From Natronorubrum texcoconense (GTDB lineage: Archaea > Halobacteriota > Halobacteria > Halobacteriales > Natrialbaceae), in contig NZ_FNFE01000006.1 of the NCBI RefSeq assembly GCF_900100335.1, forward strand, positions 62,001 through 126,000: a DNA stretch of 64,000 bases, written 5' to 3'. A program made the position numbers and the translations under genes. Below the pieces are notes generated by a model. It saw only the letters and a program-made list of their open reading frames with translations, was not told where the DNA came from and made no database searches. This document shows, one piece after another, positions 1,319 to 51,782 of this stretch. The number at the start of each line of letters is the position of its first letter. Position 1 is the first letter of the stretch.

Positions 1319-2155
1319 ATGAAACGGCTTCCGTTCGGCGTCTCGCGGCTCGATCGGATGATCGGCGGCGGTGCTCCCGCCGGCAGCGTCGTCTTGCTCG
1401 CGGGCGAAGCCGGAGCCGGCGCACGCGAGTTCTGTTACACGGCGACGGCGATGAACGGCCTCGCCGGAGCCGATCCCGACCAGTTCGAGCGCTACTACGG
1501 CGACCTCGAGGCCGAAGCTGTGTTGCCCGACGCCGTCCACTACGTCTCGTTCACCGACGAACGCGGCGCGATCGTCGACGAGATGCGGTACGTCCTGGAC
1601 GACGACCTCGTCGACGCCGGGATGGCCGACGTCTCGGTCGTCGACCTCGGCGAGGCGTACTTTCAGGTGACGCCCGTCCCGACGGCGTGGTACGCCGATC
1701 GGACGAGCGACATCACCGATCTCGGCGATCGGACCGATCGACGCGACGTCCTCGAGACGTTCGGGGATTATCTGACCGAACACGCGGCGGACAACCTCGT
1801 CGTGATCGACTCCGTCTCCGACCTCGTCGCGGCCGCGGACGAGCAGTTCGGCTGGGCGGACCTGACCGTCCTCCTCAAGGGGCTCAAGCGCGCGGCCCAC
1901 CGCTGGGGCGGCGTCATCTTACTGGTAGTCAACACGGACGTCCTCGAGCCCACCGAGTACGGCCGGCTGAAGGAAGCGACCGACGGCACGCTCTCCTTCG
2001 AGTGGGAGAGCGGCGGGTCCGAACGGGCCCGTACGCTCGTCGTCGAGCAGTTTCGCGGGGTCCTCTCGCGACTCGAGGACGAGGACATCGTCCGCTTCGA
2101 AACCGAGATCCGCGACAACGGGTTCGACATCAGTAACGTCCGAAAGATCCGGTAG
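1319..2155 (+). CDS. RecA/KaiC-superfamily ATPase-like (HTR-like) protein with degenerate Walker A
   Basis: 278 residues with the RadA/KaiC/GvpD-type fold. The opening (residues 4-20, LPFGVSRLDRMIGGGAPAG) matches the KaiC/RadA entry motif, and a Walker B strand (NLVVIDSVSDLV) occurs mid-protein. The Walker A position reads GEAGAGAR at 29-36, so the invariant Lys and the following Thr/Ser are replaced by Ala and Arg. ATP hydrolysis in the normal manner is therefore doubtful. Haloarchaeal relatives are often named HTR-like proteins after the sensory transducers near which they were first noticed. It may be a regulatory or scaffold protein. The start at ATG 1319 lies directly after a short AT-richer region. 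No partner gene is evident. Confidence 0.8.
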   Translation: MKRLPFGVSRLDRMIGGGAPAGSVVLLAGEAGAGAREFCYTATAMNGLAGADPDQFERYYGDLEAEAVLPDAVHYVSFTDERGAIVDEMRYVLDDDLVDAGMADVSVVDLGEAYFQVTPVPTAWYADRTSDITDLGDRTDRRDVLETFGDYLTEHAADNLVVIDSVSDLVAAADEQFGWADLTVLLKGLKRAAHRWGGVILLVVNTDVLEPTEYGRLKEATDGTLSFEWESGGSERARTLVVEQFRGVLSRLEDEDIVRFETEIRDNGFDISNVRKIR

Positions 2156-2296
2156 GCCGACCGCCAGCGACAGGGCGTCGACTCCGTTTCGCGGCGTATC
2201 GATCTCGAGAACCCGTCCGAGACGCCCGCTCCGCCGCGTATCGAGCGGTGAGTCCGAACCAACCCTTATGCCCGTCTCGACCCAGTATCAGATATC

Positions 2297-3163
2297 ATGT
2301 CGAGCGAGAACGACAGCCGCGTCTCATTCGGGGTCCCCGGCGAGGTGAACGACTGGCTCGCTCGAGCGGCCGACCGGCGCGGACAGACGCCCGACGACGT
2401 CTGCCGTCAGCTGGTGGCCGTGTCCCACGCCATCGCATCCGACGACGAGTTCAGTCAAACCGATCTCGAGGACGTCACGGATCTTCACTCCGAACTCGAG
2501 ACCCAACGCGAGGAGTTCCGTGAACTCCTCGAGGACGTCCGTAGTCGCGTCGTCCAGGTCAAACACGAGACCGACGCGAAAGCGCCGGCCGACCACGCCC
2601 ACGCCAACTACGCGACCGACGACGATCTCGCGACCATTCGCTCGGCGCTCGAGGAACTCGAGTCGACCGTCGACGACGGCTTCGCGAACTTCGAAACCGT
2701 CCTCGAGCAGCTGTTCGCGGAGACCGAGACGCTCGAGGAGCACGCGACGCTGCTGGCGACCGCCGTCGTCGACCTCCGGGAGCAACGCGACGCCGCCGCA
2801 CAGCGCGCACGACGGCGAGCGGAAGCCGACCGACTCAAGCGTGCGGCGAACCAGCTGGGAATTCGAACGGCCGTCTGTGACGCCTGCGACGAGCGAGTCG
2901 ACCTCGCGCTCCTGACCGAAGCCGCGTGCCCGCACTGTACACGCGGGATCACGGACGTCGTCGAGAACACCTCGTTTTTCGGCTCGCACGCGCTCGAGAC
3001 GGGCGATCCGCCGGCGCTCGAGGGGCAGATCGAACCGCCGACCACCTCGTCGTCGGCCGTCTTCGAAGCCGTCGAAGCGGACGTTGCGACGGACGATGGC
3101 GAGCGCGACGGCTCGAGTCAGAACGGCGTCGCCGACGCGAAACCGGAGGGGACGATTCGATGA
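2297..3163 (+). CDS. RHH-like / coiled-coil / zinc-ribbon protein, function unknown
   Basis: 288 residues. The N-terminal ~45 residues (RVSFGVPGEVNDWLARAADRR and following) resemble a ribbon-helix-helix or CopG-like DNA-binding segment. Residues ~55-180 are rich in Glu, Leu and Arg heptads and should form a long coiled coil. A zinc ribbon with Cys194, Cys197, Cys211 and Cys214 follows. The C-terminal ~60 residues are acidic and disordered. Its stop codon overlaps the next start (ATGA at 3160), so the two are co-translated, and TFS follows within 50 bp. The layout suggests a chromatin- or transcription-associated protein, but that is inference. Confidence 0.8.
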   Translation: MSSENDSRVSFGVPGEVNDWLARAADRRGQTPDDVCRQLVAVSHAIASDDEFSQTDLEDVTDLHSELETQREEFRELLEDVRSRVVQVKHETDAKAPADHAHANYATDDDLATIRSALEELESTVDDGFANFETVLEQLFAETETLEEHATLLATAVVDLREQRDAAAQRARRRAEADRLKRAANQLGIRTAVCDACDERVDLALLTEAACPHCTRGITDVVENTSFFGSHALETGDPPALEGQIEPPTTSSSAVFEAVEADVATDDGERDGSSQNGVADAKPEGTIR

Positions 3164-5550: not shown

Positions 5551-5826
5551 GGCACGAACTCTCGACCAACCAGTAAAATAGTTGTCTTTATCGAGACGAG
5601 AACGGGTTCGTCACGCGCGCTCTCGGCGAGAGGGATGGACCGGTGCCCGCGAACGTAACGTGTGCTGCTGAAACGACTGCACGCGTGACGGCCACTCCCG
5701 TCGGTACCGAAGTGAGACGGAGCCGGCGGTATGTCTCGCGCTGTTAGTAACCCGCTCCGGTGAAGTTCACGATTTATGGAGTGTGTCTGACATAATTTGT
5801 TATACTTGAGCCTCGGCTGTCAGGGT

Positions 5827-6090
5827 ATGGTGGGCGACCCAGACGACTGTGCGGACGTACGCGAGTTCGATCCCGAAACCACCACCCCGACTCGAGCCGT
5901 CGTGGAAGTTATCGCCGATCTCGAGGACGTCGATACGCTCGAGTTGCCGCCGTTGTACTCGACGATGAACGACCTCCTCGACGGGGTCGCCTCGAATCCA
6001 CCGGCCCCGCAGGCGGACGTTGAGATCACGTTTACGTACCAGGGCTATCGCATCACGGTCTACCAGTCGGGGCTGGTGGAGGTCGAGTAA
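5827..6090 (+). CDS. HalOD1 output domain protein
   Basis: 87 residues comprising a single HalOD1 domain: the TPTRAVVEVIADLEDVDTLELPPLYSTMNDLLDG block followed by the beta-rich VEITFTYQGYRITVYQSGLVEVE end. HalOD1 is a haloarchaeal output domain predicted to act in signalling and is usually a free-standing small protein like this. The ATG at 5827 is preferred over an upstream TTG because it leaves the usual family length. An AT-rich stretch (about 5795-5812) lies at promoter distance, fitting a short-leader transcript. Confidence 0.85.
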   Translation: MVGDPDDCADVREFDPETTTPTRAVVEVIADLEDVDTLELPPLYSTMNDLLDGVASNPPAPQADVEITFTYQGYRITVYQSGLVEVE

Positions 6091-6256
6091 CGGGGGCCGC
6101 TCCGCGTTTCGGATCCGAGGCCTCGAGGCGGGACCGCGGCATCGGCTTGTTCGTGACCGGGACATCCGAATCGTTCGAGTAGCGATCCGCCGCGTCGGTC
6201 GCGCCGCCGTCGGACACAACGTTCACAACGATTCGCGCGAATCGACGGGTAGACGA

Positions 6257-7669
6257 ATGACCGACGGGCCGCGACTACCGGGCATCGAAACGGACGACGA
6301 CGAGGAGGACCGAATCGTCTGTCACGTCGATGCCGACTGCTTCTACGCCTCCTGCGAGCGACTTCGCGAGCCCGAACTGCGGGGCGAACCCGTCGTCGTC
6401 GGCATGGGGTATGAACCCGGTGACACCATCGGCGCCGTCGCCACCGCGAGCTACGAGGCCCGCGAGTTCGGCGTCGAGAGCGCCCAAGCGATCTCGAGCG
6501 CGCTCGAGCGACTCCCTCGACGCGCAGCCCTCGATCCCGACGCCGAGGATTACGACCCCGACCTCGAACCCGAGGAAATCGGCCACTACCGGCCCGTCGA
6601 CATGGACTACTACGAGTCGATCGCCGGGGAAGTACGAGAGATCCTGCACGACTGTTCCGACACCGTCCGAGAGGTGAGCATCGACGAAGCCTACCTCGAC
6701 GTCACCGACCGAACCGCCTGGGAGGTCGCGGACGGTTTCGCCCGCCATATCACGGACCGCATCCGCCGGGAGGTCGGCGTCACCGTCAGCGTCGGCGTGG
6801 CACCCACGATGAGCGCGGCCAAAATCGCCAGCGACTTCGACAAGCCCGACGGCCTGACCGTCGTTCGACCCGGCGAGGTGCGAGAGTTCCTCGCCCCGCT
6901 CGAGGTCGACCTGCTCCACGGCGTCGGCCCCGTGACTGCGCGGGCGCTTCGGGAGATGGGGCTCGAGACCGCGGGCGACGTCGCCGCGACCGACCCGGAG
7001 CCGCTGGTCGAACGCTTCGGCGAGCGCGGTCGAGAATTGTATGATCGCGCACGCGGGGACGACGACCGCCGGGTCGAACCGAAAGGTGAGCCGAAGAGTT
7101 TCTCCCGGGAGTCCGCGTTCGCAGAGCCGGTCGAAACGTCGGAGCCGAAGTACGACCAGATCGAGACGCTCGCCGCGGCCGTCGCCGACCGTGCCCAGCG
7201 AGAGGGCGCGCTCTACCGAACCGTCGGCGTCAAGGCCGTCACCCCGCCGTACGACGTCAACACGCGCGAGCGGTCCCTGCCGGGACCGATCGACGATCCG
7301 GAGCTCGTCGACCGTATCGCCCGCGACCTGTTCACCGAGTTCGAGAGCGAGGCCGTCCGCAAGGTCGGCGTTCGCGTCGCCAACCTCGAGTTCGCCGCGG
7401 CCGACCAGGCCAGCCTCGACGGCTGGGAGGGGCGGGCGAACGGGAAACGGGCTGACGGTGACGCCACGGCAGAGACGGACGCCGCAGACGACGAACTGGC
7501 AGCCGGCAGCGACGCCGGAGTCGACAACGAGACGGGTTCGATCGGCGATGAGACGAATTCGAGCGACGAAGCGAGCGATTCGACGGCCGACGAAACGGCG
7601 TCAGCGACGGAGGACCGTGATACGACGGCCCACGCTGAGGGGCAGGCTTCGCTCGGCGACTTCTCGTGA
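6257..7669 (+). CDS. dinB: DNA polymerase IV (Y-family translesion polymerase)
   Basis: 470 residues starting at the conserved palm entry. Metal-binding Asp25 sits in HVDADCFYASCE and the second acidic pair Asp143-Glu144 in VSIDEAYLD. The thumb HhH region (LLHGVGPVTARALREMG) and little finger follow. The last ~80 residues are an acidic, Ala/Ser/Thr-rich tail ending in QASLGDFS, a good PCNA-interacting (PIP) peptide (QxxLxxF). The enzyme extends primers across damaged template and would be recruited through the sliding clamp. I chose ATG 6257, since the frame upstream (from 6020) encodes Arg-rich nonsense. Confidence 0.96.
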   Translation: MTDGPRLPGIETDDDEEDRIVCHVDADCFYASCERLREPELRGEPVVVGMGYEPGDTIGAVATASYEAREFGVESAQAISSALERLPRRAALDPDAEDYDPDLEPEEIGHYRPVDMDYYESIAGEVREILHDCSDTVREVSIDEAYLDVTDRTAWEVADGFARHITDRIRREVGVTVSVGVAPTMSAAKIASDFDKPDGLTVVRPGEVREFLAPLEVDLLHGVGPVTARALREMGLETAGDVAATDPEPLVERFGERGRELYDRARGDDDRRVEPKGEPKSFSRESAFAEPVETSEPKYDQIETLAAAVADRAQREGALYRTVGVKAVTPPYDVNTRERSLPGPIDDPELVDRIARDLFTEFESEAVRKVGVRVANLEFAAADQASLDGWEGRANGKRADGDATAETDAADDELAAGSDAGVDNETGSIGDETNSSDEASDSTADETASATEDRDTTAHAEGQASLGDFS

Positions 7670-7807
7670 GGTCGTTCGGCCTCCCGTATCGAACCCGTCA
7701 ACGGCCACAATAGTAAACTCACTCGAGCGACGAGTCGAAGCTACTGTACAGAACGGCGTAATTATATCCCTCCACTCACAACTCATAGCAGACACGCTTA
7801 CTTTCAC

Positions 7808-9121
7808 ATGACTGAGGATTTCTACGACCTTCTCGAGATCCCGTCCGACGCCTCCCAGGACGAGATCAAAGACGCCTATCGCGAGCAGGTCCGCGTCTAC
7901 CATCCCGACCACAACGACGACGAGCGAGCCCGTGCCCAGTTTACGGCGGTCAAGAAGGCCTACGACATCCTCGGCGACTCCGTCGAGCGACAGGCCTACG
8001 ACCGCCTCGGCCACGAGGACTACGTCGCGAAGCGAACCAGCGGACTCCCCTCGCCGGACGTCTGGAAGAGCACCGACGACAGCTCGAGCAGTTCGACGGA
8101 CGAGGAGTCGGGGAAGACGTTCACCTACTCCGACGACGCGAGCGCCTCGAGCAACGCCGGGTCCTCGAAATCGACGTCGAAGACGAAGGCGACGGCGTCG
8201 TCCGCCGCCGGCGGAACGGCGTCGGGGTCAGCGGCGGGAACGTCCTCATCGACTTCGTCGACGTCGGCGTCCTCGAGTACAGCGGCGACGGGAACCGCGA
8301 CCGGCGGGGCAACCGGAACGGGGGCCGGTACCAGCAGTTCGGGCGGGACGAACCGGAGTGCCAGTTCGACCGACGGCGGAACGAGTCACGCGACCGCGGG
8401 TGGCCGAACGGGGAGCCGCTCCGGGACCGAATCGGCTCGGTTCGGCGACAACGCCGCCGTCCGTTGGTGGCGTCGCCAAAACTTCTCGCTGCCGCTGATC
8501 TGGACTTCCCTGTTCGTCTACCTCGCGGGCGTCGCCGACTTCGCGCTCGCGAACGACTCCGCGCTCGAGGGACTTTCGGCCGAACTGAGCGCCGTCGGCG
8601 CCGATCCCGGTGCGCTCTGGGACGTCCTCTCGAGCGGTCGTCACGGCGTCGAGTCGTCCGTCGGCTATCTCGCGGCGTTCGAACTCGTCGCGCCGCCGCT
8701 CGAGGGACCGCTCTGGGAGGTTGCGTTAGCCGGCGTCGTTGCCCTGACGCTGGTCGCCCTGCTCGGCGCTCGAGCGGCCCGAGACGCCGAGACGTGGGGA
8801 CCGATTTCGATCGACGAGACGATCGTGCTCGCGCTCGCGGTGGCCGCGTCGACCGTCCTCGTCGGCGGGCCGCTGCTGGCCGGAGCAGTCCTCATGCCGG
8901 TGCTGTTTACCGTCATCGTCCGCCACACCCGTCGCGGGCCGGGCTGGAAGCCGTCGTATCTCTACGTCCTGCCCGTGCTGGCTCCGCTCGCGGGGCTCGC
9001 AATCGGGGCCGCCGGCGAGGCGACGCTCGCGATCGATCTCCTCGCGTTCGTGCTCTTGCCGATCGTCGGCGGGCTCGGACTGCCGCTACGGGCGACGATC
9101 CGGAAACGCTTCGGCTGGTAA
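7808..9121 (+). CDS. membrane-anchored J-domain protein
   Basis: 437 residues. An N-terminal J-domain (residues 2-65) carries the DnaK-activating HPD at 32-34 (VYHPDHNDDERA). Residues ~85-215 are a long Ser/Thr/Gly/Ala linker. From ~228 to the end there are about five hydrophobic helices, such as LIWTSLFVYLAGVADFALA and IVLALAVAASTVLVGGPLL. No DnaJ zinc-finger or C-terminal substrate domains are present, so this is not the canonical DnaJ. It probably recruits Hsp70 to the membrane. It is convergent with the UDG-like gene, separated by one base. Confidence 0.85.
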   Translation: MTEDFYDLLEIPSDASQDEIKDAYREQVRVYHPDHNDDERARAQFTAVKKAYDILGDSVERQAYDRLGHEDYVAKRTSGLPSPDVWKSTDDSSSSSTDEESGKTFTYSDDASASSNAGSSKSTSKTKATASSAAGGTASGSAAGTSSSTSSTSASSSTAATGTATGGATGTGAGTSSSGGTNRSASSTDGGTSHATAGGRTGSRSGTESARFGDNAAVRWWRRQNFSLPLIWTSLFVYLAGVADFALANDSALEGLSAELSAVGADPGALWDVLSSGRHGVESSVGYLAAFELVAPPLEGPLWEVALAGVVALTLVALLGARAARDAETWGPISIDETIVLALAVAASTVLVGGPLLAGAVLMPVLFTVIVRHTRRGPGWKPSYLYVLPVLAPLAGLAIGAAGEATLAIDLLAFVLLPIVGGLGLPLRATIRKRFGW

Positions 9122-41339: not shown

Positions 41340-42494
41340 ATGAAACTACACGAGTATCAGGCGAAGCAGGTCTTCGCCGACGCTGGGATTCCGACGCCAG
41401 CGTCTCAACTCGCCTCCGACGTCGACGGCGCTGTTGCCGCGGCCGAGGAGATCGGGTATCCAGTCGCGATCAAAGCACAGGTACAGGTCGGTGGCCGCGG
41501 GAAGGCCGGCGGGATCAAACTCGTCGACGACGAGGAGGAAGCCCGCGAGGCAGCGGACGAGATTCTGGGGATGGATCTCAAGGGCTACCACGTCGGCAGC
41601 GTCCTCGTCGAGGAGGCGGTCGACTTCACCAACGAACTCTACGTGGGGATCACGATGGACCGCGGCGAGGGCAAACCCGTCGCGATGGTCTCGACGAAGG
41701 GCGGCGTCGATATCGAGCAGGTCGCCGAGGACGACCCCGACGCCATCGCGCGCGAACACATCGACCCCGCCTTCGGGATGCACCCCTACCAGGCCCGCAA
41801 GGCAGTGTACGACGCCGGCGTCGATCAGGCGATCGCCCGCGACGTCTCGAGCGTCCTCACCACGCTCTACCAGCTCTGGGACGATCGCGACGGCGCCGAC
41901 GCCGAGATCAACCCGCTGATGGTCACCGCGGACGACGAAGTCATCGCGGCCGACGCCGTGATGAACATCGACGAAGACGCGCTCTTCCGCCAGCCCGAGT
42001 TGGCGGAGATGGAAGCGGAGGCCGCAAGCACCGGCGACGAACTCGAGCAGAAGGCCGACGAGTACGGCTTCGACTACGTCCGTCTCGATGGCAACGTCGG
42101 GATCATCGGTAACGGTGCCGGGCTCGTCATGACCACGCTCGACCTCGTCGACCACTACGGCGGCGAGCCGGCGAACTTCCTGGACGTCGGTGGCGGCGCG
42201 AAAGCCGAGCGAATCGCGAACGCGCTCGACATGGTGTTCTCCGACGACAACGTCGACAGCGTCGTCTTCAACATCTTCGGCGGGATCACCCGCGGCGACG
42301 AGGTCGCCAAGGGGATCAACGAAGCGCTCGAGCAGTTCGACGAGATTCCCAAGCCGGTCGTCGTCCGCCTCGCGGGGACGAACTGGGAGGAAGGCATGGA
42401 GATTCTGAACGAGGACCTCGTGACGGTCGAACAGACCCTCGAGTCCGCGGTCCAACGTGCTGTCGAGTACGCTGGGGAGGTGAACGACCAATGA
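41340..42494 (+). CDS. sucC: succinyl-CoA synthetase (ADP-forming) beta subunit
   Basis: 384 residues from ATG 41340 ([20 protein letters not shown], the universal SucC start); an ATG two codons earlier (41334) is possible. The ATP-grasp domain includes [20 protein letters not shown] and EINPLMV. The C-terminal CoA-ligase domain includes [12 protein letters not shown] and NFLDVGGGA...[13 protein letters not shown]. With SucD it performs the substrate-level phosphorylation step of the TCA cycle. Its stop overlaps the sucD start by 4 bp (ATGA at 42491), so the subunits are made in equal amounts. Confidence 0.97.
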
Positions 42495-43363
42495 GTGTAC
42501 TAGTCGACGAGGACACGCGCGTCGTGGTACAGGGCATCACCGGCGGGGAGGGCAAGTTCCACGCCGAACAGATGATGGAGTACGGCACGAACGTCGTCGC
42601 CGGCGCAGTCCCCGGCAAAGGCGGTCAGGAGGCCGCCGGCGTCCCCGTCTACGACACGGTCCACGAGGCCGTCGAAGAGGAGAACGCCGACACCTCGGTC
42701 ATTTTCGTTCCGCCGGCGTTCGCCGGCGACGCCGTCTTCGAATCGCTCGACTCGGATCTCGACCTCGCGGTCGCGATTACCGAAGGTATCCCGACCCAGG
42801 ACATGGCTCGAGTCAACAAGCGGCTCTCCGAGACGGACACTCGTCTCATCGGGCCGAACTGTCCCGGTCTCATCACGCCCGGCGAGGCCAAACTCGGCAT
42901 TCTCCCCGGAAACATCTTCTCGGAGGGGAACGTCGGTCTCGTCTCCCGCTCGGGAACGCTGACCTACCAGGTCGTCGACAGCCTGACCAACCGCGGCATC
43001 GGTCAGACGACCGCCATCGGTATCGGTGGCGACCCGATCATCGGCACGGACTTCGTCGACGCCCTCGAACTGTTCGAGGACGATCCCGAGACCGAGGCCA
43101 TCGTCATGTGCGGTGAAATCGGTGGCGAGGACGAGGAGGAGGCCGCCGCGTTCATCGACGACTACGTCGATACGCCGGTCGCCGGCTTCATCGCCGGCCG
43201 TACCGCGCCGCCGGGCAAGCGAATGGGCCACGCCGGTGCGATCGTCTCCGGTTCCGGCACCGGTACCGCAGAGAGCAAGATCAACGCGCTCAACGACGCC
43301 GGCGTCCCCGTTGGCGACACCCCCGAAGAGGTCGCCGACCACATCGAAGGCTTCCTCGGATAG
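42491..43363 (+). CDS. sucD: succinyl-CoA synthetase (ADP-forming) alpha subunit
   Basis: 290 residues. The CoA-binding Rossmann region is [21 protein letters not shown], followed by [12 protein letters not shown] and SRSGTLTYQ. The phosphorylated active-site histidine is in [12 protein letters not shown]. Length and motifs are standard. It is translationally coupled to sucC. A small membrane protein gene begins 139 bp downstream, with its own AT-rich upstream sequence. Confidence 0.97.
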
Positions 43364-45026: not shown

Positions 45027-45713
45027 GAACCTCTTCCGAGAACATACATAATAGCACGACTTTAACTTTTGGAATTTTTTCACCACCAGCGGCCAGAACT
45101 GATAGTGTATTAGTGTGTCGGCCGTTTTCGATCGGTCTCGCGATCGATAGTTGACAATGTCGTAGTTTTCTCGGCGTCGAGGAATGTTTGTGTAATTTGT
45201 CGTCGCTATCGAGGTGAAGCAGTCGCCCGCACGCCGTTCACCGATGATTACCTGCGATCACCGATTCCGTTACCGAGATGCGGTGATCGCCGTATTGCGA
45301 CGGGAGACGTGGCCGCAGTCTCACACAGTGAGTGATCACGACGCCATTACCGCGCCCGTCCCCCGACGGTATCGGTGTTCGGCCCTCGAACACGGAATCG
45401 TCGACCGACTGGACGACGAGCCGGAACCGCGGGCTGGTTCGTTAGACGAACGACTGATTACCGGTCGTCGACGGTGCAGTACGCGGACGGTCGTCGTCTC
45501 GGACGAGTACCGACTCGTCAGGTATCGAACGTCTCAGTCGGCGTTCCGTTACCGAGTTAGCTGAAAATCCAATTCGAGGTTGGGTTCGTCCGTTCGGTGG
45601 AAATACGCGCAGCGGTCAAGAACGATCCACCTCGTTTATGCGGGAATCCGCCCATTAGTTGGTGCAGTCCGACAGTCGCATTGGAGACGATTTTCGGAGG
45701 CAGTGAGGAGACC
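45027..45713. other. 687-bp intergenic region between divergent genes
   Basis: No convincing gene. A plus-strand frame at 45214-45564 is Arg-rich without haloarchaeal codon character and is treated as non-coding. The left part (45040-45080) is AT-rich and should hold the promoter of the acidic-protein gene. The right end contains the purine-rich GTGAGGAGA just before ATG 45714, a plausible SD for the repeat-protein gene. A non-coding RNA cannot be excluded. Confidence 0.4.
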
Positions 45714-47231
45714 ATGAGAGACAACAATCAGCGAACGCACGAGGACCAAGCGTACGACATCGGTCTGTCGCGTCGCACGCTTCTAGCGGGGACGGGCGCA
45801 GTCCTCGCTACCGGCGCAGTGCTACCGGCGACGGCGTTCGCACAGGAGGACGGAGCCGCCGAAGCGGGTATCGACGAGGGGATCGAACGCCTCGAGGACG
45901 AGGGCATCGAAGTCACGGACGAACAGCGAGCGGCGGCGGTCGATGCGGCGAATGACGCCGCTGATGAGCATCCGGACGCGGACGACGACCAAATCTTCGG
46001 AGCCGCGAGCGGCGCGGTGTTCGGAGCACTCGAGGAGGAACCGGAGGAAGAGCCGGAGACGGAGCCAGAGGAGTTCGAGGTACCAGACGAGGACGACGAC
46101 GAACTCGAGTTGCTGGCGCTCCAGCAGTCACAGACCCAGCAGATCGACGCCTCACAGGTCCAGGCGCTCGTGGGAGGCGGGATGAGTGGTGCGCTCGCAC
46201 AGTACCAGCGCGTCACCGCAACCCAGATCCAGCACGCGGCGAGGGGAGCGTGCCGCGGCGCGGCGTATCAGGCGCAGGTCGTGACCGTCGAGCAGCTCCA
46301 GATCGCCGCGTTCGGCGGCGCGACGGGGTCGCTCGTGCAGGCGCAGTCAGTGTCGGTGACACAGATTCAGGCGGCCGCCTGGGGCGGGGCCTCGGGCGCG
46401 CTCAGCGGAGTAACCCAGCACCAGAGCGTCTCGATTACCCAGTTACAAGCCGCTGCACAGGGTGCCGCAGAAGGCGCTGCTCGCGGGGCAGCCCAGCGAC
46501 AGGATGTTGCTGCCGACCAGATGATGGCGGCTGCCTACGGTTGTGCCCAAGGGGCGGCGATACAGACGCAGGTCACGAGCGTGACGCAGATCCAGGCGCT
46601 CGCCATCGGCGCGGCGCGCGGTATCGTCGTCACGTTCGTGCAGGTGACGATCATACAGATTCTCCTCGTGGCGAGGCAGGCGGTCGCCGCGATCAGCGTC
46701 GTGATCGTCCAAATCACTCTCGTCAGTATCACGCAGATTCAACAGTACGCGGAGGAGTCCGCGGCCAACACGATGGAACGAGTCGAGTCGGAGGGACTCG
46801 AGAGCGAAGACGAAATCGAGGAGGCTGCGTCCGACGAGGCGACGACGACCGCCGAAGAGGAAGGCTACGACGAGAACGGCGACGAAGCTGGCGACGGCGA
46901 AGACGGTGACGACGAGAACGGCGACGAAGATGGTGACGATGAAACTGGCAACGGTGAGAACGGCGACGAAGCTGATGGAAACGGCGACGGAGACGACGTG
47001 AACGGCGATGAAGACGGTGCAAACGGCAACGGTGAAGCAGGTGACGGCGCGAACGGCGAGGGAGATGGCGAAAGCGGTGAAAACGGTACCGACGTTGGCG
47101 ACGGCGGGAACGGCAACGGCGACACGGGCAACGGTGCCGCAAACGGCAACGGTGGAGGTAACGGCGACGCTGGCAACGATGCGACCAACAACGGTGCCAA
47201 CGGCGGCGATACACCGATAACGAGATTCTGA
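45714..47231 (+). CDS. Tat-exported repeat protein with Gln/Ala/Gly repeats and Asp-Gly-Asn tail
   Basis: 505 residues from ATG 45714, preceded by an SD-like GAGGAGA. A twin-arginine signal lies at 19-43 (SRRTLLAG, ending AFAQ). A charged region (45-135) follows. Residues ~140-345 are about eight or nine tandem repeats of ~23 residues with consensus xVTxTQIQxAAxGAAxGAxxQxQ. The seventh and eighth repeats are more Val/Ile-rich. Residues ~384-500 are an Asp/Gly/Asn/Glu low-complexity tail. The regular spacing suggests a solenoid or fibre-forming surface protein; I recognise no family. It is followed by the biotin operon, with a 240-bp gap. Confidence 0.85.
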   Translation: MRDNNQRTHEDQAYDIGLSRRTLLAGTGAVLATGAVLPATAFAQEDGAAEAGIDEGIERLEDEGIEVTDEQRAAAVDAANDAADEHPDADDDQIFGAASGAVFGALEEEPEEEPETEPEEFEVPDEDDDELELLALQQSQTQQIDASQVQALVGGGMSGALAQYQRVTATQIQHAARGACRGAAYQAQVVTVEQLQIAAFGGATGSLVQAQSVSVTQIQAAAWGGASGALSGVTQHQSVSITQLQAAAQGAAEGAARGAAQRQDVAADQMMAAAYGCAQGAAIQTQVTSVTQIQALAIGAARGIVVTFVQVTIIQILLVARQAVAAISVVIVQITLVSITQIQQYAEESAANTMERVESEGLESEDEIEEAASDEATTTAEEEGYDENGDEAGDGEDGDDENGDEDGDDETGNGENGDEADGNGDGDDVNGDEDGANGNGEAGDGANGEGDGESGENGTDVGDGGNGNGDTGNGAANGNGGGNGDAGNDATNNGANGGDTPITRF

Positions 47232-47471
47232 AGCGCCACCCGGAACGGAGCCGGAACCGCTCCGGCTCGCAGGCGTTTCGTGACGCAACGCCCAACGGAA
47301 CCGACCCGAACCGCTCGAATTCGCCGTCGAGCGCCCCTGTTTTCGGGTCGTTTCGATCCGGTACGGCGGCCGGGAGGGGCGATTCGGCTCTCGAGTCGAT
47401 CCGGTATCCCGTTCGTCGCAATAACAGGACGTTTCCCAAACACTTTATTCTCGTTAACCTATGATCGATTC

Positions 47472-48578
47472 GTGGTTTACGAGACGGACAACCAGACGGT
47501 CGACGACGCACTCGAGCGCGTGCTGGCCGGCGAGCGACTCGATCGAACCGACGGGCTCGCGCTGCTGGCCCAGCCGGTCGAGGCGCTCGCCGAAGCCGGC
47601 GCTGCCGTGCGCGATCAGTACGGCGACGGCACGGTCGACGCGTGCTCGATCGTCAACGCGAAGGCGGGCAACTGCGCGGAGGACTGTGGCTTCTGTGCGC
47701 AGTCGGTCCACTTCGACACCGGCATCGACACCTACGGCTTCCTCGGACCCGAGAAGATCCTCGAGGCGGCCAAACGCGCCGAACGCGACGGGGCCCAGCG
47801 CTTCGGCATCGTCGTCGCGGAGAAAGGCGTCTCCAAGGAAAACCGGCCCGAAGAGTGGAAAGAGGTCCTCGAGTCCATCCGACTCGTTCGAGACGAGTGT
47901 GATCTCGAGGTCGACGCCTCTCTCGGCATTCTCACCGAAGAGGAGGCCGCGATCCTCGCCGACGAGGGGATCAACCACTACAATCACAACATCGAAACCT
48001 CGCCGCGGTACTTCCCCGAAATCGTCGGCACGCACAGCTTCGAGGATCGGGTGAAAACGCTCGAAGTCGCCAAGGAGGCCGGTATGGACCTCTGTGCGGG
48101 CGTCATCCTCGGAATGGGCGAGACGCCGACCGACCGCGTCGACGCCGCCATCGCCTTACAGGAGATCGGCATCTCCTCGCTCCCGGTGAACGTCCTTAAT
48201 CCCGTCGCGGGGACACCACTGGCCGAGCAGGGCGTCGAGATCACCACCGAAGAGATCGTCAAAACGGTCGCGGTGTACAAACTGCTCCACCCCGAGTCCC
48301 GCGTTCGGCTGACGGGCGGTCGTGAGGTCAACCTCTCGCCCGACGAGCAACATCTGCCGCTCGAGGCGGGTGCCGACGGCCTGCTCACGGGCGACTATCT
48401 CACGACCGAGGGCCAGTCCCCCGGCGAGGATCTCGAAATCATCGAACGAGCCGGTCTCGAGCCAAACATGGAGGCCAACGAGTTCGATCCGGAAGCGGTC
48501 AAGGCTCGCGGCGCAGAGGCCGCGGAGTCGTCGACCGAGACGACGGCGAGTACGGGCGCGGAACCGAGCGACGACTGA
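47472..48578 (+). CDS. bioB: biotin synthase
   Basis: 368 residues from GTG 47472 (VVYETDNQTV), just after an AT-rich stretch (CTTTATTCTCGTTAACC). The radical-SAM cluster CxxxCxxC is Cys68, Cys72 and Cys75 (NCAEDCGFCAQS). Downstream motifs include YNHNIETSPRYF, GVILGMGET and NVLNPVAGTPL of BioB, and the [2Fe-2S] ligand Arg region near RLTGGREVN. It inserts sulfur into dethiobiotin. The last ~35 residues are an acidic/Thr tail. First gene of the bioB-bioU-like-bioF-bioD cluster; the next gene begins 27 bp downstream. Confidence 0.95.
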   Translation: MVYETDNQTVDDALERVLAGERLDRTDGLALLAQPVEALAEAGAAVRDQYGDGTVDACSIVNAKAGNCAEDCGFCAQSVHFDTGIDTYGFLGPEKILEAAKRAERDGAQRFGIVVAEKGVSKENRPEEWKEVLESIRLVRDECDLEVDASLGILTEEEAAILADEGINHYNHNIETSPRYFPEIVGTHSFEDRVKTLEVAKEAGMDLCAGVILGMGETPTDRVDAAIALQEIGISSLPVNVLNPVAGTPLAEQGVEITTEEIVKTVAVYKLLHPESRVRLTGGREVNLSPDEQHLPLEAGADGLLTGDYLTTEGQSPGEDLEIIERAGLEPNMEANEFDPEAVKARGAEAAESSTETTASTGAEPSDD

Positions 48579-48605
48579 CGACTAACGGACACTCGAAACA
48601 CGACA

Positions 48606-49670
48606 ATGGACGACATCACGTTTGCAGTACTCGGAACGGGAGGAATCGGCCGACGAGCACTCGAAGTGAGCCAACATAAGGAACACCTGACGCCCGCCGT
48701 AGCCTGTGACCGCCACGGCACCGCGATCGATTTCGATGGGCTGGACGTGGACGAGCTGTTGGCCGCAACCGAGGGCAACATCGATAATGAAGTCGCGACA
48801 GACGGCGGAACGGGCGCCACACCAGCCGACGGTGAGGGCGGCGTCAAACAACACGGCGAGGACAGGGGCGTCGTCGCCTCGAGTCAGGCCCGTCCCAGCG
48901 AGGATCCGATTCAGGACGTGATCGATCACGGCGACGAGATCGACGCTGTCCTGCTGGCGCTGCCGAACTACGAACACGACTTCATCCCGCGGGTCGCCGA
49001 CCGGTTCCTCGAGGGCGGCTACTCAGGCGTCATGATCGACGTGCTCAAGCGCTCGCGCGTAATCGACATGCTCGACGAGCGCGGCGACGAGTTCGAAGAC
49101 GCGGGTATCACGTTCATCTGTGGCGCCGGCGCGACACCGGGTCTCCTGACGGGCGCTGCGGCGCTCGCTGCCCAATCGTTCGTCGAGGTCACCGACGTCG
49201 AGATCTGGTGGGGTGTCGGTCTCAAGTCCGGCTACCAAGATAACCGCGGCACCGTCCGCGAGGACATCGCCCATCTTCCCGAGTACAATATCGAGACGGC
49301 TCGAGACCTCTCGGACGCGGAAATCGAGGACATTATCGACGACCACGACGGCGTCATCGAGTTCGAGGACATGGAACACGCCGACGACGTGCTCCTCGAG
49401 CGCGCAGGCGTCTGCGACTCCGAGGACGTGGCCGTCGGCGGCGTTTTGGACGTCCGCAGCGACGAGAAACCGACGACGACCACCGTCAGCGTGACGGGAA
49501 CGACCTTCGACGGCGAGACGGCGACGAACACCTTCCAGCTCGGCGACGAGACGAGTATGGAGGCCAACGTCAACGGACCGGCACTCGGTTACCTGAAGAC
49601 AGGCGTGCGGCGAAATCGCGCTGGCGAGTACGGCGTCTTCGGTCCCGCCGAACTGATGCCGAGCTTCTGA
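48606..49670 (+). CDS. bioU: BioU-like dehydrogenase-fold protein, candidate DAPA-forming enzyme
   Basis: 354 residues. An N-terminal Rossmann fold (FAVLGTGGIGRRALEVSQHK) is followed by LLALPNYEHDFIPRVADRFL and a saccharopine-dehydrogenase-like C-terminal domain. It sits between bioB and bioF, and the cluster has no bioA aminotransferase. BioU, known from cyanobacteria with haloarchaeal homologues, makes 7,8-diaminopelargonate by sacrificing its own lysine side-chain amine. Lys148 in SGVMIDVLKRS is at about the expected place for that lysine. The assignment rests on gene context, fold and this residue, not on an alignment. Confidence 0.8.
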   Translation: MDDITFAVLGTGGIGRRALEVSQHKEHLTPAVACDRHGTAIDFDGLDVDELLAATEGNIDNEVATDGGTGATPADGEGGVKQHGEDRGVVASSQARPSEDPIQDVIDHGDEIDAVLLALPNYEHDFIPRVADRFLEGGYSGVMIDVLKRSRVIDMLDERGDEFEDAGITFICGAGATPGLLTGAAALAAQSFVEVTDVEIWWGVGLKSGYQDNRGTVREDIAHLPEYNIETARDLSDAEIEDIIDDHDGVIEFEDMEHADDVLLERAGVCDSEDVAVGGVLDVRSDEKPTTTTVSVTGTTFDGETATNTFQLGDETSMEANVNGPALGYLKTGVRRNRAGEYGVFGPAELMPSF

Positions 49671-49847
49671 GACGGGAGCGACTGTACCGTCTCTCCGGCG
49701 TACCGATTCGCGGTACCAGGGGCCGTATCAATCCTCGGTTCCAGGCGCCGTATCGGTCGAACCTACTGCCCAGCGGCCGTCACAGTAACGAGTACGATCG
49801 TGATAACCCTCGTAATGCGTGCAACACAGAACCGTGAAAGTGAAAGC

Positions 49848-51080
49848 ATGGCACTGACACCGTACACCCGAATGGAAGACCGCGGGTTCGACCTCGAGAC
49901 TCGACTCGACGTCCTCGAGGAAGCCGATCTGAAACGAACGCTCTCCCCCGTCGATCGAGTCGCGGAGCGAGGCTACTTCGCACCGCCCTGTGGCGGCGAG
50001 CTACCGGTTCTCGACTCGGCCGAAGCGCTGGTGTTCGCCTCGAACAATTATCTGGGGCTGACCGACGACCAGCGGGTTCAGGACGCAGCCCGGCAGGCCG
50101 CCGCGACCGTCGGCACGGGTGCCGGTGCCAGCCGACTCGTCACCGGCGACACGCTGGTTCATCAGGACTTAGAGCGCGTGCTCGCCGAGACGAAAGGAAC
50201 CGAGCGGGCGCTCGCCTTCCCGTCTGGGTACGCGGCGAACGTCGGAACGATCACGGCCCTCGAGCCGGATGTGATCTTCTCCGACGAGTACAACCACGCG
50301 AGCATCATCGACGGCTGTCGGCTCACGGACGCTGACTCGGTCGTCTACAGCCACTGCGATCCGACGAGTTTGCGGACGAAACTGGAGGAGCAAGCCAGAA
50401 CCGCCGGCGACGCGGACGAGTCGTGGCTGATCGTCACCGACTCCGTGTTCAGCATGGATGGAACCGTCGCACCGATCGCAGAGCTCTGCGACCTCGCCGA
50501 GGAGTTCGGCGCGTGGGTGATGGTCGACGAGGCCCACGCGACGGGGCTCTACGCGAACGGCGGCGGCGTCGTCCAGTCGGAGGGACTCGAGGATCGCGTC
50601 CACGTCCAGATGGGGACGCTCTCGAAGGCGCTGGCGAGCCAGGGCGGCTACGTTGCGGGGAGCAACGAGTTGATCGAGTGTCTCTGCAACGACGCTCGCT
50701 CGTTCGTCTTCTCCACCGGGCTCGCGCCGCCGGCCGCGGCGGCCGCGAGCGAGGCGCTCCACGTCGCCCGCCACAGCGACGTCCGAGAACGGCTCTGGGA
50801 GAACGTCGCCCACCTTCGAGACGGTCTCGAGTCGATGGGCTTCGAAGTGATCGGCGACTCGCAGATCCTCCCCGTCCTCGTCGGCGACCGACGGGATGCG
50901 CTCGCGCTGGCCGACGGACTCCGCTCGCGAGAGATCGTCGCACCCGCGATCCGTCCGCCGACGGTGCCCGAGGGAACGAGTCGAATTCGCGTCGCTCCGA
51001 TGGCGACCCACGAACAGCGCGACATCGTTGCCTGCCTCGAAGCGTTCCGAGCAGCGGGCGAAGACGTCGGGATTCTCTGA
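49848..51080 (+). CDS. bioF: 8-amino-7-oxononanoate synthase
   Basis: 410 residues from ATG 49848 (MALTPYTRMEDRG); ATG 49872 is an alternative. Alpha-oxoamine synthase hallmarks: FASNNYLGLTDDQRV, TGAGASRLVTGDTLVHQDLE, VDEAHATGLYA and the PLP Lys260 in GTLSKALASQGGY. It joins a pimeloyl thioester to L-alanine to give KAPA. The source of pimeloyl-CoA or -ACP (bioW or bioC/bioH) is not visible here. bioD follows ten bases downstream. Confidence 0.95.
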   Translation: MALTPYTRMEDRGFDLETRLDVLEEADLKRTLSPVDRVAERGYFAPPCGGELPVLDSAEALVFASNNYLGLTDDQRVQDAARQAAATVGTGAGASRLVTGDTLVHQDLERVLAETKGTERALAFPSGYAANVGTITALEPDVIFSDEYNHASIIDGCRLTDADSVVYSHCDPTSLRTKLEEQARTAGDADESWLIVTDSVFSMDGTVAPIAELCDLAEEFGAWVMVDEAHATGLYANGGGVVQSEGLEDRVHVQMGTLSKALASQGGYVAGSNELIECLCNDARSFVFSTGLAPPAAAAASEALHVARHSDVRERLWENVAHLRDGLESMGFEVIGDSQILPVLVGDRRDALALADGLRSREIVAPAIRPPTVPEGTSRIRVAPMATHEQRDIVACLEAFRAAGEDVGIL

Positions 51081-51089
51081 GGACCACCG

Positions 51090-51782
51090 ATGAGTGACAC
51101 CAGCACCACGGTCGCGATCGTTGGGACCGGTACCGGTATCGGAAAAACCGTCGTGACCGCGGGTATCACTCGCTGGCTCCGTGAGAACGGCGCGGATGCG
51201 CGAGCGATCAAACCCGCCCAGACCGGCTATCCGCCGGACGACGATGCGGGCTTCGTCGCCGAGGCGTGCGAGGCGGACGAGGCCGCGACCTGTCCCCGCT
51301 ATCTCGAACCCGCACTCGCACCGCGCGTGGCCGCGGCCGAAGCCGGCGAGACCCTCACGTACGACTCGATTCTGTCGGCGTGCAACGCTGCGATCGCGGA
51401 CACGTCACACCCGATCGTCGAGGGAATCGGCGGACTGCGGGTGCCCCTCGCCGACGACCGCGAGGTGATCGACCTCGTCGCGGATCTGGATGCTACTGCG
51501 GTGGTCGTCACCCGTTCGGGACTCGGCACGCTCAACCACACCGCGCTCTCGGTCGAAGCGCTCGAGCGCCGCGGGATCGATATCGCCGGCATCGTCTGCA
51601 ACGAGTACGCGGGCGCGACGGTCGCCGAGCGGACCAACCCCGCCGAACTCGAGCGCATGACAGGCTACGCAGTCGAAACGGTGCCACCGCTCGAAGGGGA
51701 GACACCGCGGGCGATGGCTATCGGTGTCGAAACCGCACTCTCGTCGAGGTTTCTGGAACGGTTTCTAACCGTAGACGGCTGA
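51090..51782 (+). CDS. bioD: dethiobiotin synthetase
   Basis: 230 residues. The P-loop is GTGTGIGKTVVTAG (10-23), followed by KPAQTGYPPDD, EPALAPRVAA and VEGIGGLRVPLADD, all BioD landmarks. It carboxylates and closes the ring of DAPA using ATP and CO2, the step between BioU (or BioA) and BioB. Last gene of the cluster. Its end is convergent with a small C2H2 protein gene. Confidence 0.95.
   Translation: MSDTSTTVAIVGTGTGIGKTVVTAGITRWLRENGADARAIKPAQTGYPPDDDAGFVAEACEADEAATCPRYLEPALAPRVAAAEAGETLTYDSILSACNAAIADTSHPIVEGIGGLRVPLADDREVIDLVADLDATAVVVTRSGLGTLNHTALSVEALERRGIDIAGIVCNEYAGATVAERTNPAELERMTGYAVETVPPLEGETPRAMAIGVETALSSRFLERFLTVDG

Follow-up and report, generated by a model that had tools for sequence, protein, structure and literature searches.

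A haloarchaeal biotin ring-assembly operon with a probable BioU in place of BioA

In the best-known form of biotin ring assembly, DAPA is made by BioA, a SAM-dependent (or lysine-dependent) aminotransferase of the PLP fold. A second solution to the same step is BioU, known from Synechocystis sp. PCC 6803 (Slr0355; PDB entries 6ir4, 6itd, 6k36, 6k37 and 6k38), a Rossmann-fold dehydrogenase that stands in for a missing BioA and gives up the amine of its own Lys124; the chemistry used below follows the passages on BioU in PMC12915131 and PMC7133116. The window analysed here, a stretch of 64,000 nucleotides from Natronorubrum texcoconense (GCF_900100335.1, NZ_FNFE01000006.1:62,001-126,000, forward strand; all coordinates below are window positions), carries four biotin genes at 47472-51782 on the plus strand in the order bioB, bioU, bioF and bioD. 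The product of the second gene has both domains and the fold in common with Slr0355, bears Lys148 and His258 where Slr0355 has Lys124 and His233, and is likewise predicted to substitute for a missing BioA. It differs from Slr0355 in that it is about 45% identical to cyanobacterial BioU (45-46% for three sequences compared, 42-47% in a further alignment), carries in its Rossmann domain a variable insertion of some 30 residues, falls under the NCBIfam cut-off, is encoded in a bioB-bioU-bioF-bioD operon, and has an activity that is so far a prediction. Compared with BioA, the same step would be carried out by an unrelated fold, a Rossmann dehydrogenase in place of a PLP aminotransferase, while the diaminopimelate, D-amino-acid and lysine dehydrogenases share the fold class of the window protein at a TM of only about 0.5 and E of about 1e-10 or worse. 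The locus is read, at a probability of about 0.88, as a haloarchaeal biotin ring-assembly operon in which the second gene encodes an archaeal BioU that takes the place of BioA, DAPA formation and single turnover being predicted from homology and from a structure model.

The gene order, which the first-pass annotation had given as bioB, a dehydrogenase-fold gene, bioF and bioD, was borne out on the plus strand. The biotin synthase gene bioB (47472..48578, +) scores 338 bits on TIGR00433 against a cut-off of 225; its longest open frame begins at 47280, and the conserved start, as across 86 loci, is the GTG codon at 47472, which opens the protein MVYETDN. It is followed by bioU (48606..49670, +), which encodes 354 aa and is assigned as a predicted KAPA-to-DAPA single-turnover dehydrogenase from NF047886, Slr0355 and the AF2 model. 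The gene for 8-amino-7-oxononanoate (KAPA) synthase, bioF (49851..51080, +), has TIGR00858 as its best match (1.5e-121) with 405.6 bits, slightly under the cut-off of 426.5, and the dethiobiotin synthase gene bioD (51090..51782, +) reaches 110 bits on TIGR00347 against a cut-off of 83.3. Just upstream of bioB, at 45597-47231, lies a gene for a large acidic protein, repetitive and rich in Gln and Ala, whose signal is Tat-like (SRRTLL).

The sole NCBIfam match of the second gene product is the BioU model NF047886 (339 bits, 2.1e-101), whose cut-off of 600 bits is reached neither by the window protein nor in any of 194 Halobacteria genomes; as thresholded, the model consequently does not take in the window BioU. 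This threshold is a naming rule and not a property of the enzyme. In a phmmer search of the PDB, the Slr0355 chains were matched at 4.1e-85 to 1e-83 with no other credible match, and the homology spans both domains, at residues 6-54 and 87-354, so that the kinship with BioU suspected at first pass holds for the whole protein with the exception of the insertion between the two stretches. A similar result was obtained with an AF2 model based on an alignment of 38 homologues (mean pLDDT 84.6, pTM 0.83), for which the five BioU entries rank first among known structures (TMt 0.94-0.95, E about 1e-40, rmsd 1.5-2.4; TM 0.95 to 6itd), followed by the D-amino-acid and diaminopimelate dehydrogenases as the next fold at 1.5e-10 or worse. 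The insertion in the Rossmann domain (approximately residues 55-86; 48768..48863, +) is the gap between the two phmmer stretches and is modelled with low confidence, pLDDT being below 50 at residues 59-83; its length varies, and both the cyanobacterial proteins and that of the deep-branching genome G021 have a short form of it.

Lys148 (codon 49047..49049, +) is the predicted sacrificial amine donor on the grounds of alignment and conservation. It falls in the column of Lys124, in which the chain of 6itd, a K124A mutant, has Ala at exactly this place, so both the numbering and the pairing of the two lysines proposed at first pass were correct. All 73 haloarchaeal proteins have this lysine, as do all 79 cyanobacterial ones, the latter set being 80 retrieved sequences less one that was dropped. 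Similarly, with the numbering anchored on K124, the conserved His of the EDMEHADD motif corresponds to His233 of Slr0355, mutated as H233A in 6k38, and to His258 of the window protein (codon 49377..49379, +); it is invariant among the 38 aligned sequences. From the conserved lysine we infer that the window BioU acts in a single turnover.

In the proposed pathway, BioF would combine a pimeloyl thioester with alanine to give KAPA, and BioU, as a Rossmann-fold dehydrogenase, would use NAD(P)H to couple KAPA to its own Lys148 through the side-chain amine. BioU would then assist the carboxylation of the KAPA-Lys148 product and oxidise the other side of the bond with NAD(P)+, whereby the DAPA-carbamate would be freed, Lys148 left as allysine and the BioU protein spent; ring closure to the ureido form by BioD and sulphur insertion by BioB would complete the route. 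The haloarchaeal protein would in this way make DAPA (or its carbamate) once per protein molecule. Alternatively, the BioU homologue may carry out the BioA step as a true catalyst, with the amine of the lysine restored or an outside amine used, and the age of the haloarchaeal branch, with an insertion of its own, gives this reading some room; it is nevertheless improbable, as few if any of the proteins compared lack the sacrificial lysine or His258, and the operon shows no partner gene able to restore the lysine. If the single-use BioU is indeed at work, the missing BioA step would be filled for an entire archaeal class, and a wasteful single-use enzyme would have been retained in two distant lineages, the cyanobacteria and the haloarchaea.

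No bioA gene lies near the operon, and the product of bioU itself has no class-III aminotransferase match in NCBIfam or Pfam. The genome of N. texcoconense contains 13 class-III aminotransferase matches, of which 12 were scored on NCBIfam and none reaches a bioA cut-off, the thirteenth being a contig-edge fragment; across the 194 Halobacteria genomes the best score is 311 bits, and none lies above the cut-off of 405. The absence of bioA remarked on at first pass thus extends from the locus to the scored aminotransferases of the genome and to the 194 genomes of the class, and a bioA elsewhere in the genome is rejected as a candidate. Any of the at least 12 class-III aminotransferases of this genome could have a side activity on KAPA, and one of them reaches 303-308 bits with the bioA model, which lends something to the idea that DAPA is made by such an enzyme while the BioU homologue serves in redox or some accessory function. 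This reading is more doubtful still than that of a true catalyst, since the best-scoring aminotransferase fits the general model PRK07483 better (434 bits), 0 of the 12 scored pass the bioA cut-off, and bioA is above its cut-off in 0 of 194 genomes, whereas BioU tracks bioB in 73 of 73.

The distribution of BioU follows that of the biotin synthase. At E <1e-40, BioU is present in 73 of 194 Halobacteria genomes (that of the window included) and bioB in 88, of which 86 lie above the bioB cut-off, and all 73 BioU genomes fall within the 88 with bioB. Of the 73 stretches examined, 69 hold bioB, bioU, bioF and bioD together; the exceptions are two stretches without bioF and bioD within about 6 kb (L109, L111), one in which the contig ends inside bioF (L088), and one whose genome has its bioB elsewhere (L112). 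Fifteen genomes have bioB and no intact BioU; BioU remnants are found in two of them (G101, G181), bioB with bioF and no BioU in one (G033), and bioB alone in the retrieved stretch in 12. The window's own genus includes one genome (G149, stretch L114, about 5641-6530) with a BioU that a frameshift breaks, through either a sequencing error or a real loss. Among 294 genomes of the phylum, taken without a breakdown by class, all 14 BioU matches belong to the window's own taxonomic order and none lies outside it, and no BioU was found in viral contigs.

In a plasmid collection, a BioU homologue was found in seven records, all from haloarchaea (Natrinema, Haloferax, Haladaptatus and Natronococcus), and in the four that were inspected the genes again stand in the order bioB, bioU homologue, bioF and bioD. 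The public label at the best place is 'transcriptional regulator' for six of these records and 'hypothetical protein' for the seventh. That the homologue regulates transcription of the biotin operon, as the six labels would suggest, is very hard to credit and is rejected, since Pfam shows no DNA-binding domain in it, the whole-length BioU fold and the active-site residues are present, and a BirA with a helix-turn-helix (HTH) is the better candidate for a regulator. The assignment as BioU would, if true, correct this wrong label. The placement of bioU on large plasmids or replicons in these haloarchaeal records may aid its spread or loss.

A quick tree with SH-aLRT, built from 27 of the 79 cyanobacterial and 72 of the 73 haloarchaeal sequences (the frameshifted L114 being excluded), separates haloarchaeal and cyanobacterial BioU into two clades on long branches. 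Because the two are separate and long-branched, a recent cyanobacterial source for the haloarchaeal gene is rejected; an old transfer of BioU, in either direction, is likely. A literature search, judged from listings and passages, returned no paper on an archaeal BioU. According to a passage of PMC3403918, Natronomonas pharaonis is prototrophic for biotin and carries three or more putative biotin genes, which agrees with a pathway that lacks bioA. In Haloferax mediterranei, PMC10779274 names bioB as HFX_5079, bioF as HFX_5077 and bioD as HFX_5076, all three of which were reduced in an lsm mutant under nitrogen starvation; the numbering suggests that HFX_5078, between bioB and bioF, is the candidate BioU of that species.

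The start of bioB carries a second conserved feature. A TATA-like element (TTTATT, 47444..47449, +) precedes the start codon of bioB by about 25 bases, and among 87 bioB upstream regions T is found at -29 and -28 in 90% and 99%, respectively (consensus TTAT), a position consistent with a leaderless bioB transcript. It is closely followed by a palindrome of BirA type, the putative operator TCGTTAACC-N14-GGTTTACGA (47451..47482, no strand), which overlaps the bioB start and has its right half-site in codons 1-4 of the gene. Of 86 loci, 83 have the pattern GTNNAC-N16-GTNNAC at position -19. Its left half, which is non-coding, reads GTNAAC in 84 of 87 upstream regions (a set with one locus more than that of the full pattern), and in shuffled upstream sequences GTNNAC is found there in 0.4%. 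Within the gene, all 86 bioB sequences have GTT as codon 2, and GTT makes up 6% of their remaining Val codons, a bias which indicates that the right half-site is held at the DNA level too. The pattern is specific to bioB among the biotin genes compared, being absent at the starts of 73 bioU, 28 bioF and 13 bioD genes with clean starts; the genome of N. texcoconense has a single site with the strict pattern (on both strands, as it is palindromic), and the reversed control gives 0.

For bacteria and methanogens, Rodionov and colleagues are reported to have described in 2002 a BirA operator with the consensus TTGTAAACC-N14/15-GGTTTACAA. Set against this consensus, the window palindrome has the same core half-sites and spacing, and an HTH-bearing BirA is at hand as its partner; it differs from the bacterial and methanogen operator in that it spans a leaderless start codon and places one half-site inside bioB. 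The sole biotin ligase of the genome is a BirA with an N-terminal HTH (HTH_11, BPL_LplA_LipB and BPL_C), and a gene for the biotin transporter bioY is also present; in the 13 kb that contain bioY and birA, no such palindrome was seen. With the palindrome and the HTH-bearing BirA both present, the biotin operon is predicted to be regulated by BirA through binding at this site. What is new here is the BirA-type palindrome over the bioB start, together with the fixation of bioB codon 2 as GTT, and the operator offers a handle for finding more haloarchaeal biotin genes through further sites.

The operons cover the route from KAPA to biotin, and this coverage makes visible a gap before it, at the source of the pimeloyl group. 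The first-pass annotation had pointed out that the enzyme making it is missing, and this was upheld for BioW and BioC in the genome of N. texcoconense, in which BioW is absent and no BioC reaches its cut-off; with neither of these two pimeloyl enzymes found, the pathway is incomplete on paper. Haloarchaea are not known to have bacterial fatty acid synthesis. Among those recurrent neighbours of the operon in several genera that were identified, which include succinate-CoA ligase subunits, a type III RuBisCO and a haloalkane-dehalogenase-like hydrolase, there is no known pimeloyl enzyme. Upstream of the operon, at about 42009-43363, lie sucC (read in part) and sucD, a pair found again close to the biotin operon of several genera, and a dicarboxylate-CoA ligase formed by such a pair could, speculatively, activate pimelate. 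As a tentative picture of the class as a whole, haloarchaea may make biotin with a single-use enzyme, obtain the pimeloyl thioester by a route without BioW or BioC, and place a BirA operator within the start codon of bioB.

BioW itself is found in two of the 194 genomes, G021 and G096. In the deep-branching G021, bioB, bioW, bioU, bioF and bioD stand in a row, which reads as a full path from pimelate with a predicted BioU in the place of BioA. In G096, bioB (stretch L061, contig 34, about 7650-7900) is interrupted by a stretch with the translations SYTHL and DVYKRQ, which resembles a known type of assembly artefact, so that the break may be unreal in the organism. Elsewhere in the same genome (stretch L221, about 1858-2964, minus strand), bioW comes after a decayed bioB start that still bears the palindrome, an arrangement that is probably what is left of a bioB-bioW operon of the kind seen in G021.
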